This document shows, one piece after another, positions 22,803 through 56,695 of a stretch of DNA of 64,000 bases. Both the position numbers and the translations under genes were made by a program. The notes under the pieces are model-generated. The model was not told the origin of the DNA. It worked only from the letters and a program-made list of their open reading frames with translations, and made no database searches. The stretch's first letter is position 1, and every line of letters starts with the position of its first letter. The stretch comes from Chitinophagales bacterium (GTDB lineage Bacteria > Bacteroidota > Bacteroidia > Chitinophagales > CAIODY01), in the NCBI GenBank assembly GCA_947449695.1, contig CANFST010000015.1, positions 1 through 64,000 of the forward strand, in the 5' to 3' direction.

Positions 22803-23156
22803 TTTGAATTAGATGAGGTTGCTGACAAAAACAACAACAATGACTGAAATTAAAAAAAAGGTATCATTTTTTTTGTTTGAACTACCTATTATCCATACTC
22901 CGTATTTTGGAAATGGATTCTGATTTTGGAATTTTTAATGAAATTTCTATAAATGCTTAACCATTTTATAAAAGCTACTGCTGATAATAATTACAGCCTG
23001 TTTTTGATAAGTTTATAGCTTTTTTTTGCGGCTGCAAAAGTAAAATGTTTTTTGAAAACATAAAAATTGATAAAAACTTGTGGATAAGTTTTTTTAACCA
23101 TTGTTTTGCTGCACGATTTTATTTATATCTAACTAAAAAATAACCTCATGCGTAAT
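22803..23156. other. Non-coding AT-rich stretch after lpxD
   Basis: No convincing gene. I see a 27-codon ATG ORF near 22840 that I do not trust. There is a TACTTTTG box on the minus strand (23034-23041) followed by GCAGCCGC, and a perfect TGTGGATAA (23079-23087), the reverse complement of the DnaA-box consensus TTATCCACA. Two near-copies of TTGATAAGTTT / GTGGATAAGTTT occur. Nothing shows an origin or an RNA gene, but the stretch is the longest unexplained one apart from the repeats. Confidence 0.4.
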
Positions 23157-23212
23157 CGTCCATCGTCCATCGTCCATCGTCCATCGTCCATCGTCCATCG
23201 TCCATCGTCCAT
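23157..23212 (+). repeat. Heptamer microsatellite (CGTCCAT) x 8
   Basis: Eight perfect, uninterrupted copies of a 7-nt unit, 56 bp. They follow an ATG (23148) and 9 nt of unique sequence, and precede the exported-protein gene at 23245. All frames through the unit are open and encode a cycle of RPSSIVH. The frame from the ATG at 23148 ends at a TAG 10 nt after the repeat with eight copies. Confidence 0.95.
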
Positions 23213-24324: not shown

Positions 24325-25014
24325 ATGAAAAACAATATTCTTTTACTGCTTGCCTTGCTGCTTTTAGCCAGTTGCCAAAAGCAACCCACTGCTAATTTTA
24401 ATACAGATAAAACCTTGTATTATGCTGGCGAAACGGTACATCTAACCGATGCCAGCACCAATGCACACCATTGGTATTGGACTATGCCCGATGGCAGCGA
24501 AAAAACTGGGCAAAATGTAGATTATGTTATTGATACCAACGATTTAGGAGGTAATGAAACTTTTGCTTTAACAGTTACTTCAAAAAATGAAAAGAAATTA
24601 AACACTATTGCAAAACCAATTTTAATTTCTCAAAAAATATTTAATACCGATTATTATGCTTTTGATCAGACACAAAATCACATCATACCTTTAATAAAAT
24701 ATAGCTATTTTGAAAATGGAAATTGGGTTATAGTCGTTGATAGATTGATTATTACATTTTTGGGATTAACAAATAAACCAAGTGCAGGTACTTATCAAGC
24801 TCAGTCACAAGTGACAGTTGCTCCAATATATTACAGTACCAATGCTGATACTTTTGATAATATTGTATTCAGCACGGGGAGTATAACTGTAGCAAATTTT
24901 GCCAATGGCTTGATTCAATTTTCAATACAGAATGTGAATGGCTCACATTACTCGTTCAATTTTGGAGGTACACCTCAATCTGTAAGTTTAAATGGATTAA
25001 TTAATTGTTATTAA
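24325..25014 (+). CDS. PKD-like lipoprotein
   Basis: 229 residues. Lipoprotein signal MKNNILLLLALLLLASC with lipobox LLAS|C. Residues 23-100 form a PKD-type Ig fold (ANFNTDKTLYYAGETVHLTDASTNAHHWYWTMPDGSEKTG). The rest is beta-rich with no recognised family. It follows the tail-fibre-like gene by 48 nt. A surface-lipoprotein role in adhesion or carbohydrate contact is only inferred. Confidence 0.65.
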   Translation: MKNNILLLLALLLLASCQKQPTANFNTDKTLYYAGETVHLTDASTNAHHWYWTMPDGSEKTGQNVDYVIDTNDLGGNETFALTVTSKNEKKLNTIAKPILISQKIFNTDYYAFDQTQNHIIPLIKYSYFENGNWVIVVDRLIITFLGLTNKPSAGTYQAQSQVTVAPIYYSTNADTFDNIVFSTGSITVANFANGLIQFSIQNVNGSHYSFNFGGTPQSVSLNGLINCY

Positions 25015-25025
25015 TACTTAAGTTT

Positions 25026-25325
25026 ATGAAAAAAATCATAATAACATTTTTTCTCATCATAATAACGTTAGCTATTCAAGCACAAGTTTATAATTCGAGC
25101 GCCTATATTTATAATGGGTATACCGATAAGCTATCTTATGAAACTGGTGATATTGTAACCTTTTATTTGTCAGGAAATTTACCACACCCATGGTATATTC
25201 CTTCATCATGGTGTTCTGCGCCTCGGTTCGTGTCCCCACGAACATCAATCATTTCGGTTAGTGGGGACACTAACCGAGGCAGGGGAACTAACCTTATACT
25301 TATTGCAGCAACAGAAAGATATTGA
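25026..25325 (+). pseudogene. Chimeric ORF: 5' end of an exported-protein gene run into a REP palindrome
   Basis: The ATG at 25026 gives MKKIIITFFLIIITLAIQAQ, a signal peptide, then about 42 residues of normal protein (YNGYTDKLSYETGDIVTFYLSG). At codon 63 the frame enters the 71-bp REP-like palindrome (25214-25284) and reads a meaningless sequence to 25325. The 3' part of the original gene is missing. The track start at 25005 overlaps the previous gene and is less likely. I call it a truncated gene. Whether it is translated is unknown. Confidence 0.7.
25214..25284. repeat. REP-like double palindrome, copy 1 (71 bp)
   Basis: Two small hairpins face each other: GTTCGTG-TCCC-CACGAAC and GGTTAGTG-GGGA-CACTAACC. 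Together they form a larger inverted repeat (GCCTCGGTT...AACCGAGGC). The 71 bases are identical to copy 2 at 25856. The layout is that of paired REP elements moved by REP-associated tyrosine transposases (RAYT). No such transposase gene is in this window. Confidence 0.85.
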
Positions 25326-25827: not shown

Positions 25828-25932
25828 ATGAATAAATATTTATTAATTCTTTTTTTTCTGCGCCTCGGTTCGTGTCCCCACGAACATCAATCATTTCGGT
25901 TAGTGGGGACACTAACCGAGGCAGGGTGGTGA
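25828..25932 (+). pseudogene. Signal-peptide stub interrupted by REP copy 2
   Basis: ATG at 25828, 5 nt after the previous stop, reads MNKYLLILFF and then runs straight into the second 71-bp palindrome, ending at TGA 25930-25932. It looks like the first codons of another exported-protein gene cut by the palindrome. It is only 34 codons and is not in the ORF track. Confidence 0.55.
25856..25926. repeat. REP-like double palindrome, copy 2 (71 bp)
   Basis: Identical over 71 bases to the element at 25214. The flanks differ (G before and G after copy 1; T before and T after copy 2), so the boundaries are sharp. It also sits a short way into an exported-protein coding region. Confidence 0.85.
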
Positions 25933-25978: not shown

Positions 25979-26011
25979 AAAATAAGGGGTTTAAAGCGGA
26001 TAAGTATTGAA

Positions 26012-26242
26012 AATCAAACGGTTGTAAATTATAAACAAAAGTTTACAGCCTGTAACCAACTGGATATGGCTTGTAACCAGTTGGTTACAAATGATAACCA
26101 GACGGATAAGGTTTAAAACCATTTGGTTACAAAACAAAACCATTTGGATACGAACCATATCCAGTTGGTTATAAAGCAAAACCAAATGTTTACTAATTAT
26201 AACCAGTTGGTTATAATTGATAACCAGACGGATAAAATGACA
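26012..26242. repeat. Degenerate 21-bp tandem array, 11 units
   Basis: Eleven consecutive units of exactly 21 bp, with consensus near AACCAGTTGGTTA followed by a variable 8-mer. Units start at 26012, 26033, 26054, 26075, 26096, 26117, 26138, 26159, 26180, 26201 and 26222. A further decayed unit with a 1-base deletion may precede (25991). Because 21 is 3 x 7, each frame carries a 7-residue period (NQLVTND, NHLVTKQ, NQTDKMT on the plus strand). The plus frame has one internal TAA (26114). The minus ORF at 25991-26290 is a by-product of the array. Confidence 0.85.
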
Positions 26243-26292
26243 ATAGATTTTTTTTAAATAATAATTTTTAACAATTAAAACAGCTAACAATT

Positions 26293-26895
26293 ATGAGCAC
26301 AAAAAAAGGATTTATTCCAAACCGCGATGGCGATGAAAAAACATGGGTAGTTAACCTCCGTACAGTAGCACCCAGTCAGGCAGCTACTTTGAGTATTTCG
26401 GTAGCCGATTTAGCTACCATCAACACCTCATGTAATGACATCGAAAACCAAATCAACCTGGCTATGCAGGCGCAGCAAGTAGCTAAGCAAGCCACTGCTA
26501 CTAAAAAAGCAAAGGTGAAAGTGGCTGAAACCAATTTAAGAGGCGTGATAAAACGCTTAAAAAGTAGTCCTAATTATACCGATGCTATTGGCAAATTATT
26601 AGGCATTGTAGGCGAAGACCATGTGGTGGATGAAGCTAACAGTGCACCCGAATTGAAATTGCACAAAGTGCCATCGGGCTGGCAAATAGATTTTAATTTG
26701 CAAGACCATTTTGATGGGGTGAATATTTATAAAAAACTCAGCACTGCGGCTGCGGCTACTTTTTTAGCCCGTGATACGGCATCGCCTTATATTGATACCA
26801 CTGCGGTTGATAATGGCACACAGTATTATGCTTATTATGTTATGCACGATGAAGAAGTAGGCTTGGTGAGCAATACAGCAGTAGTGAGTGTATAA
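26293..26895 (+). CDS. Cytoplasmic-type protein with helical N-terminus and FnIII-like C-terminus
   Basis: 200 residues, no signal peptide. Residues 1-100 (MSTKKGFIPNRDGDEKTWVVNL, then AMQAQQVAKQATATKKAKVKVAETNLRGVIKRL) are mostly helical. Residues about 118-200 (ELKLHKVPSGWQIDFNLQDHFDGVNIYKKL...YIDTTAVDNGTQYYAYYVMHDEEVGLVS) look like one fibronectin type III domain. I have the impression that similar proteins occur in other Bacteroidota but know of no function. It lies 50 nt after the 21-bp repeat array, which may include its promoter. Confidence 0.65.
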   Translation: MSTKKGFIPNRDGDEKTWVVNLRTVAPSQAATLSISVADLATINTSCNDIENQINLAMQAQQVAKQATATKKAKVKVAETNLRGVIKRLKSSPNYTDAIGKLLGIVGEDHVVDEANSAPELKLHKVPSGWQIDFNLQDHFDGVNIYKKLSTAAAATFLARDTASPYIDTTAVDNGTQYYAYYVMHDEEVGLVSNTAVVSV

Positions 26896-55858: not shown

Positions 55859-55971
55859 AAATCAACATGAAAAAGATTATCATTTTTTTAGCCTTAATTC
55901 TTCCATTGTCATTTGCATTAAATGCCCAACAAGCTAATAAAAGTTTGAAGCGTATTAAAATTATCGACCAA
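55859..55971 (+). repeat. 113-bp perfect direct repeat, copy 1
   Basis: Identical to 56273-56385. It starts 8 nt before the ATG and ends in codon 35. The homology of the two genes continues beyond it, but only at moderate protein similarity. Confidence 0.95.
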
Positions 55972-56229
55972 GCTGAAAACCCAGTTCGTCACTGGCGTTT
56001 GTATTCATTTGAAATGGAAAATCAACAACCAGCAAATATGGAATTGTTGATGAAAAATTTGAAAGCTGTAAAAGGTGTAACTGATGTAGTGCCAAGAAAT
56101 GAAACTATATCAAAACGTATTTTGATTACTATTAATTTCGATATGCGTTTAAGCAAAAGCGTTGAATTGAAAAATGCTTTTACAAATAGTGGATTTGAAA
56201 TCACCAATATGCCTGATAGCGAAAAATAA
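55867..56229 (+). CDS. Small exported protein, paralog A
   Basis: 120 residues. Signal peptide MKKIIIFLALILPLSFALNA|Q. The mature 100 residues (SLKRIKIIDQAE...LLMKNLKAVKGVTDVVPRNETISKRILITINFDMRLSKSVELKNAFTNSGFEI) have a beta-alpha-beta-beta-alpha-beta rhythm like heavy-metal-associated domains. The CxxC metal motif is missing, so metal binding is doubtful. It lies between two giant type B T9SS cargo genes. An accessory role for them is a guess. Confidence 0.7.
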   Translation: MKKIIIFLALILPLSFALNAQQANKSLKRIKIIDQAENPVRHWRLYSFEMENQQPANMELLMKNLKAVKGVTDVVPRNETISKRILITINFDMRLSKSVELKNAFTNSGFEITNMPDSEK

Positions 56230-56272
56230 ACTAATTGGGGTTCGTATAATTTTTTATTAAATTTTCAAATAT

Positions 56273-56385
56273 AAATCAACATGAAAAAGATTATCATTTT
56301 TTTAGCCTTAATTCTTCCATTGTCATTTGCATTAAATGCCCAACAAGCTAATAAAAGTTTGAAGCGTATTAAAATTATCGACCAA
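56273..56385 (+). repeat. 113-bp perfect direct repeat, copy 2
   Basis: Identical to 55859-55971, offset 414 bp. The identity breaks off after GACCAA. Confidence 0.95.
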
Positions 56386-56646
56386 AATGAAAATAGCCAT
56401 CGCCAATGGCAATTGTATGTATTTGAAATGGAAGACCAACAGCCTGTTGATTTTTCGTTATTGAAGAAAAATTTAGCTGCCATTAAAGGAATCATAGTTG
56501 AAGAACCTAAACAACAAAACGTTGCTTCTAGGATTAGTATTGATTATGAATTTGGTATGTCTTTTAGAAAAAATCCTGAATTGAAAAAAGCATTTAACGA
56601 TAGTGGTTTTGATGTGATTAATATCAGTGAATTCGAAAAAAAATAA
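56281..56646 (+). CDS. Small exported protein, paralog B
   Basis: 121 residues. The first 35 codons are base-for-base the same as paralog A. After that the proteins keep the same layout (NSHRQWQLYVFEMEDQQPVDFSLLKKNLAAIKGIIVEEPKQQNVASRISIDYEFGMSFRKNPELKKAFNDSGFDVINI) but differ at over half of positions by eye. The same HMA-like fold is suspected, again without CxxC. It is followed after 49 nt by the 1597-residue adhesin-like gene. Confidence 0.7.
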   Translation: MKKIIIFLALILPLSFALNAQQANKSLKRIKIIDQNENSHRQWQLYVFEMEDQQPVDFSLLKKNLAAIKGIIVEEPKQQNVASRISIDYEFGMSFRKNPELKKAFNDSGFDVINISEFEKK

Positions 56647-56695
56647 TTCTATTTCCTTATTTTAAAACTATTAAATCTTACAACCATTCAACTCA

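Follow-up and report, generated by a model that had tools for sequence, protein, structure and literature searches.

Using the relatives of a gene of unknown function and a second, unrelated gene family, we found that arrays of tandem DNA repeats with very different sequences but whole-helical-turn spacing are placed upstream of these genes, suggesting that the spacing rather than the text of the repeats is what evolution keeps; tentatively, this is because a protein stacks along the DNA there. The starting point was the window, i.e., a stretch of 64,000 nucleotides from a Chitinophagales bacterium (contig CANFST010000015.1 of assembly GCA_947449695.1, referred to as C15; other contigs of the same genome, G000, are numbered likewise). 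A sequence-only reading of the window described eleven units of exactly 21 bp ahead of an FnIII-like gene, and this observation was confirmed. Tandem Repeats Finder (TRF) detects the array at 26074-26234 with period 21 (65% matches, 0% indels) and period 42 (71% matches, 0% indels), and in register there are 11 units of exactly 21 bp, of which the first two are weak. The array ends 50 bp before the ATG of the gene (Table 1). The consensus is AACCAGATGGTTACAAATTAT, in which columns A1, C4, A5, G9 and T12 are invariant, although the units otherwise differ strongly. The windowed match is 0.72 at lag 42 and 0.66 at lag 21, with the best lag match exceeding that of shuffled sequences by z = 17.4. 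The span of 25991-26292 given in the sequence-only reading corresponds to a minus-strand open reading frame plus flanks rather than to the array itself, whereas its statement that the plus frame (NQLVxxx) contains one stop and the minus frame none over 99 codons is correct. That each unit centres on a TAACCAnnTGGTTA dyad, and that the segment carrying the array is duplicated, had not been noticed.

Table 1. Coordinates of the features (window positions unless a contig or locus is named; L numbers denote individual loci that were examined)
Feature	Position	Strand	Description
Phased array	26012..26242	.	11 units of 21 bp starting at 26012, 26033, 26054, 26075, 26096, 26117, 26138, 26159, 26180, 26201 and 26222; core dyad TAACCAnnTGGTTA
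Promoter-like -7 element (inferred)	26244..26252	+	TAGATTTT, cf. Bacteroidota TAnnTTTG, just after the last array unit
Family-1 gene	26293..26895	+	200 aa; predicted N-terminal alpha-hairpin (helices 12-29, 37-90, 97-103) and C-terminal FnIII domain (strands 122-189)
Duplicated segment	25858..26307	+	palindromic element, array, leader and first codons; 97% identical copy at G000:C26:33310-33758; 5' part shared with C47 at 94% while the C47 array differs
Imperfect palindrome	25859..25928	.	70 bp, GCCTCGGTT..AACCGAGGC, at the 5' border of the duplicated segment, also at C26 and C47
Second copy of the palindrome	25214-25286		interrupts the reading frame that starts at 25005
Minus-strand ORF	25991..26290	-	99 codons over the array; judged not a gene
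Chimeric gene	L035 5757-6040 (G000:C26:33755-34039)		window-type array, leader and first codons joined to the last 95 codons of a family-2 gene, out of frame at an A run
Array beside neither family	L141 16648-16957		21/42 bp
Array beside neither family	L142 10558-10877		21/42 bp
Array beside neither family	L148 6197-6433		21/42 bp
Array beside neither family	L149 13197-13436		21/42 bp
Array beside neither family	L225 5976-6458		21/42 bp
41-bp array	L151 1987-2294		in the window's own genome; no family-2 gene seen next to it
Microsatellite	23155-23212		ATCGTCC heptamer, 8.3 perfect copies
Tandem duplication	55859-56648		414-bp unit in about two copies, 75% alike, containing the start of a small gene (ATGAAAAAGATTATC...)

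An important distinction is that the consensus of the array is local, whereas its period is shared. The consensus put forward in the sequence-only reading, AACCAnnTGGnTA, was searched with 21-bp spacing and occurs at only two loci of the 3.14-Mb genome (C15 and C26), and in none of the five other genomes of the family. The C26 locus is the 97% copy of the window segment, placed in front of a different, truncated gene. A third copy, at C47, where the segment stands alone, keeps the 5' flank (113 of 120 positions identical) but has another array: all nine dyads differ from AACCA..TGG, typically as AAACA..TGT, with the CC of the left arm changed in all nine units and the GG of the right arm changed in most of them. 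The arrays of the window, C47 and C63 share CAnnTG, while those of C40 (GTGGnnnnCCAC) and C1 do not.

To determine whether the geometry is linked to the gene, we collected its relatives with a profile search, which found them in 30 of 399 genomes of the order and in some distant Bacteroidota (family 1). Arrays of other sequence but the same geometry lie upstream, for example AAACAnnTGTTT, GTACAnnTGTAC, GTGGnnnnCCAC, GGCATATGCC and AGGGnnnnCCCT. With a single threshold, 63 of 82 family-1 genes have an array of 21, 22, 42, 43 or 44 bp within 600 bp upstream, compared to 5 of 83 downstream flanks and to 9 of 431 control genes from genomes that carry the family, two of these nine being a family-1 array itself (Fisher p = 2e-53). 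The period is 21/42 bp in most family-1 arrays and 22/44 bp in one family of genomes. Absence of arrays upstream of all homologs had been named beforehand as the outcome that would overturn the interpretation, and the result was the opposite. It should be noted that the genomes are largely drafts, start codons were inferred, array calls are ungapped, and paralogs are not independent, so that the p-values overstate the evidence. No array was detected for 19 of the 82 genes, several of them in one genome (G317), some arrays lie 200-450 bp from the gene, and at three loci (L195, L189 and L091) the array lies downstream of the family-1 gene instead of upstream. In sampled 20-kb stretches, genomes without the family gave 1 weak array in 640 kb, compared to 8 in 864 kb in genomes with it (about 9 per Mb). 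Arrays away from both families exist at a lower rate, mostly in intergenic regions above ordinary genes (Table 1).

The truncated gene at C26 belongs to a second, unrelated family of about 317 aa (family 2), with a helical part plus a beta-sandwich. Of its members, 23 of 30 have upstream arrays with a period of 41 or 42 bp (p = 1e-25), usually without a 21-bp signal, and none of 31 has one downstream. The two families occur in the same genomes (21 shared of 30 and 31, out of 399; p = 1e-20), but a profile comparison showed no homology between them. The period therefore goes with the family: two turns for family 1 and four for family 2.

The unit sequences turn over, and protein similarity hardly predicts array similarity: protein pairs with 70-75% identity have array scores of 0.18-0.30, the background (most pairs) being 0.30, although a few close pairs reach 0.65. 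In paralogs of one genome (L129/L130, L109/L110, L190/L196), the upstream flank and the gene align well, while the array between them is largely replaced; in L109 and L110, a (GT)n run roughly 400 bp upstream of the gene is conserved although the arrays differ. Indels, conversely, are nearly absent. In 55 arrays with 618 units, we counted 3,553 substitutions against the consensus and 459 in-register motif hits, compared to about 35 out of register, many of which come from one locus with a 7-bp sub-repeat.

To examine symmetry, we compared the fold energy of the arrays to a column-permuted null model that keeps the tandem structure. The mean z was -2.41 on the sense and -2.49 on the antisense strand (-6.9 for the window), and -2.93 and -2.91 for family 2, i.e., there is self-complementarity without strand preference. 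A dyad at p < 0.05 was found in 22 of 57 arrays, including that of the window, and was thus common but not universal, with no dyad symmetry in L097, L115, L094, L087, L122 and L123. Compensatory change within units appeared positive when the dyad centre was chosen on the same data (combined Z 3.1), but with an unbiased centre the signal disappeared (cis 2606 versus permuted 2604). The symmetry therefore belongs to the locus consensus, as expected for a dimeric reader. Motifs of the Bacteroidota promoter type are enriched between array and start codon (TTTGn17-23TAnnTTTG, 4 versus 0.13 expected; 14 versus 4.1), with a -7-like peak 5-15 bp after the array end.

The protein encoded at 26293 is predicted by AlphaFold (AF2) with high confidence (pLDDT 95.6) to consist of an alpha-hairpin and an FnIII domain with the seven-strand sandwich. 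Foldseek matches only FN3 domains, the C-terminal 90 residues matching FN3 structures with probability 1.0 and a best E of about 1e-3, and no DNA-binding fold was recognised. No Pfam, NCBIfam or PHROG family fits. Family 2 is modelled less well (pLDDT 84, five sequences), and its clearest matches are small beta-sandwich or cupin folds. By inspection, neither start shows an obvious signal peptide. A phage or plasmid origin was not supported, as no homolog was found in either collection, nor in viral contigs.

The reading that we favour, although tentatively, is a DNA-level platform of about ten dyad-symmetric protein-binding sites spaced exactly two helical turns apart, so that bound dimers would sit on one face of the DNA and touch each other, placed just above the promoter of the FnIII-protein gene, with fast-changing sequence specificity. 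What the analysis demonstrates is that helical spacing is kept while sequence drifts, that the arrays are linked to this family and to a second family with a four-turn spacing, that dyad symmetry exists at the level of the locus consensus in many arrays, that indels are nearly absent, and that the repeat sequence turns over between paralogs. That a protein binds, that it binds cooperatively, that it controls the gene below, and that its specificity changes in concert with the array (as the arm changes between C15 and C47 may indicate) are inferences. Candidate binders are the encoded helical protein itself or a dedicated regulator elsewhere in the genome, but neither was identified; the finding that proteins 70-92% identical can have unrelated or poorly related arrays is hard to reconcile with the encoded protein being a sequence-specific reader. 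The interpretation in the sequence-only reading is thus partly supported. Of its two options, a repeated protein-binding site on one DNA face as an operator array for the 26293 gene, or the remains of a heptad-repeat gene, the former is better supported (the arrays keep helical phase, have dyad symmetry without strand preference, and lie just above a promoter-like motif), but not as a shared operator, because the consensus is confined to two loci of this genome while other homologs carry arrays of other sequence and the same period; the latter is not supported. A CRISPR and a simple microsatellite were rightly excluded: CRISPR arrays have identical repeats of 23-50 bp with unique spacers and cas genes, whereas here the 21-bp units are degenerate and without spacers, and no cas-like gene was seen among the open reading frames at 20-34 kb.

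Several other explanations are considered less likely. Satellite-like DNA made by replication slippage and kept without function, with period 21 as a mutational preference of these genomes, is consistent with the range from near-perfect arrays (L123, L115) to degenerate ones, like young and old satellites, and with the arrays found elsewhere; however, slippage alone does not explain the placement upstream of two particular families, their different periods, the near absence of indels, or the conserved dyad columns within degenerate arrays, and this reading is unlikely. Somewhat less likely still is a transcribed array, i.e., a leader or small RNA of tandem hairpins that controls the downstream mRNA or sequesters a protein. 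The self-complementarity and the transcription of 52-nt arrays in B. coagulans (PMC8625621) point to it, but the lack of strand preference and of within-unit compensation, the promoter-like motif between array and gene at many loci, and the absence of any Rfam match above gathering do not. A recombination or capture site, at which genes are exchanged at a cassette border, is about as doubtful: the array segment is duplicated in front of a truncated family-2 gene and alone at C47, and paralogs keep flanks and gene while the array is swapped, but no integrase-like gene was noticed beside the examined arrays, the loci are mostly solitary genes at unrelated positions, and two or three duplications can be ordinary homologous recombination or spread of the palindromic element.

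Phased curvature, in which any sequence repeated every two turns bends DNA in a plane and helps the promoter, would fit the periods of 21, 22, 41-44 and 64-65 bp, all close to whole numbers of turns, and the free sequence. Nevertheless, a wedge model, with parameters that should be regarded as approximate, gave no clear excess of curvature over column-permuted arrays (0.063 versus 0.058, mean p 0.48), and the window array is not above full shuffles; this explanation is improbable. Least likely is a heptad-repeat protein gene or its remains. Although 21 bp is seven codons, the minus frame is open, and open frames are in slight excess over the null (82 versus 66 +/- 6), variation is not concentrated at third codon positions (3.90 versus null 4.66 +/- 0.36), many arrays have no open frame in any of six frames, and periods of 22 and 41 bp are not multiples of three.

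Tandem repeats of constant size (20-21 and 52 nt) and variable sequence were described in Bacillus and other bacteria by Subirana and Messeguer in 2021 (PMC8161180), who noted that the length is two helical turns and suggested a polymerising nucleoid protein or small RNAs. The present arrays fit that class in unit size, in sequence that differs between loci, with several sequence families per genome, and in being non-coding. In the text searched, however, that paper reports no link to particular gene families and does not mention Bacteroidota or upstream placement, and our literature searches found no report of a 21-bp array linked to these genes, of the family-specific period, of the dyad test or of array replacement between paralogs; as far as we could find, the gene linkage and the family-specific period are new. 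Iteron and operator arrays (plasmid iterons, partition centromeres, multi-site operators) likewise have direct repeats at whole helical turns near a promoter and are often dyad-symmetric, as many but not all of the present arrays are, but known arrays share one sequence read by one cognate protein, whereas here nearly every locus has its own sequence and no cognate DNA-binding protein was found beside it. REP/BIME elements are also short intergenic palindromes, but REP sequences are shared across a genome and are not in strict 21-bp tandem register. Bacterial repeats of fixed length and free sequence have been called enigmatic since their description in Bacillus, with no gene or protein attached to them; two uncharacterised protein families, each with its own whole-turn period and found in the same genomes, give this class a first genetic address, and the question of what reads the repeat length becomes testable. 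A more far-reaching possibility, which we consider unlikely but compatible with the data, is a new kind of bacterial system in which a helical-plus-beta-sandwich protein is encoded beside a helically phased array of free sequence, the protein family sets the period (two turns for the FnIII family of roughly 200-235 aa, four turns for the 317-aa family with a longer helical part), and the array sequence is actively renewed. Such a system would be comparable to a satellite centromere, with fixed repeat length and free sequence.

Two further repeats in the window, a heptamer microsatellite and a tandem duplication of a 414-bp unit, are listed in Table 1.
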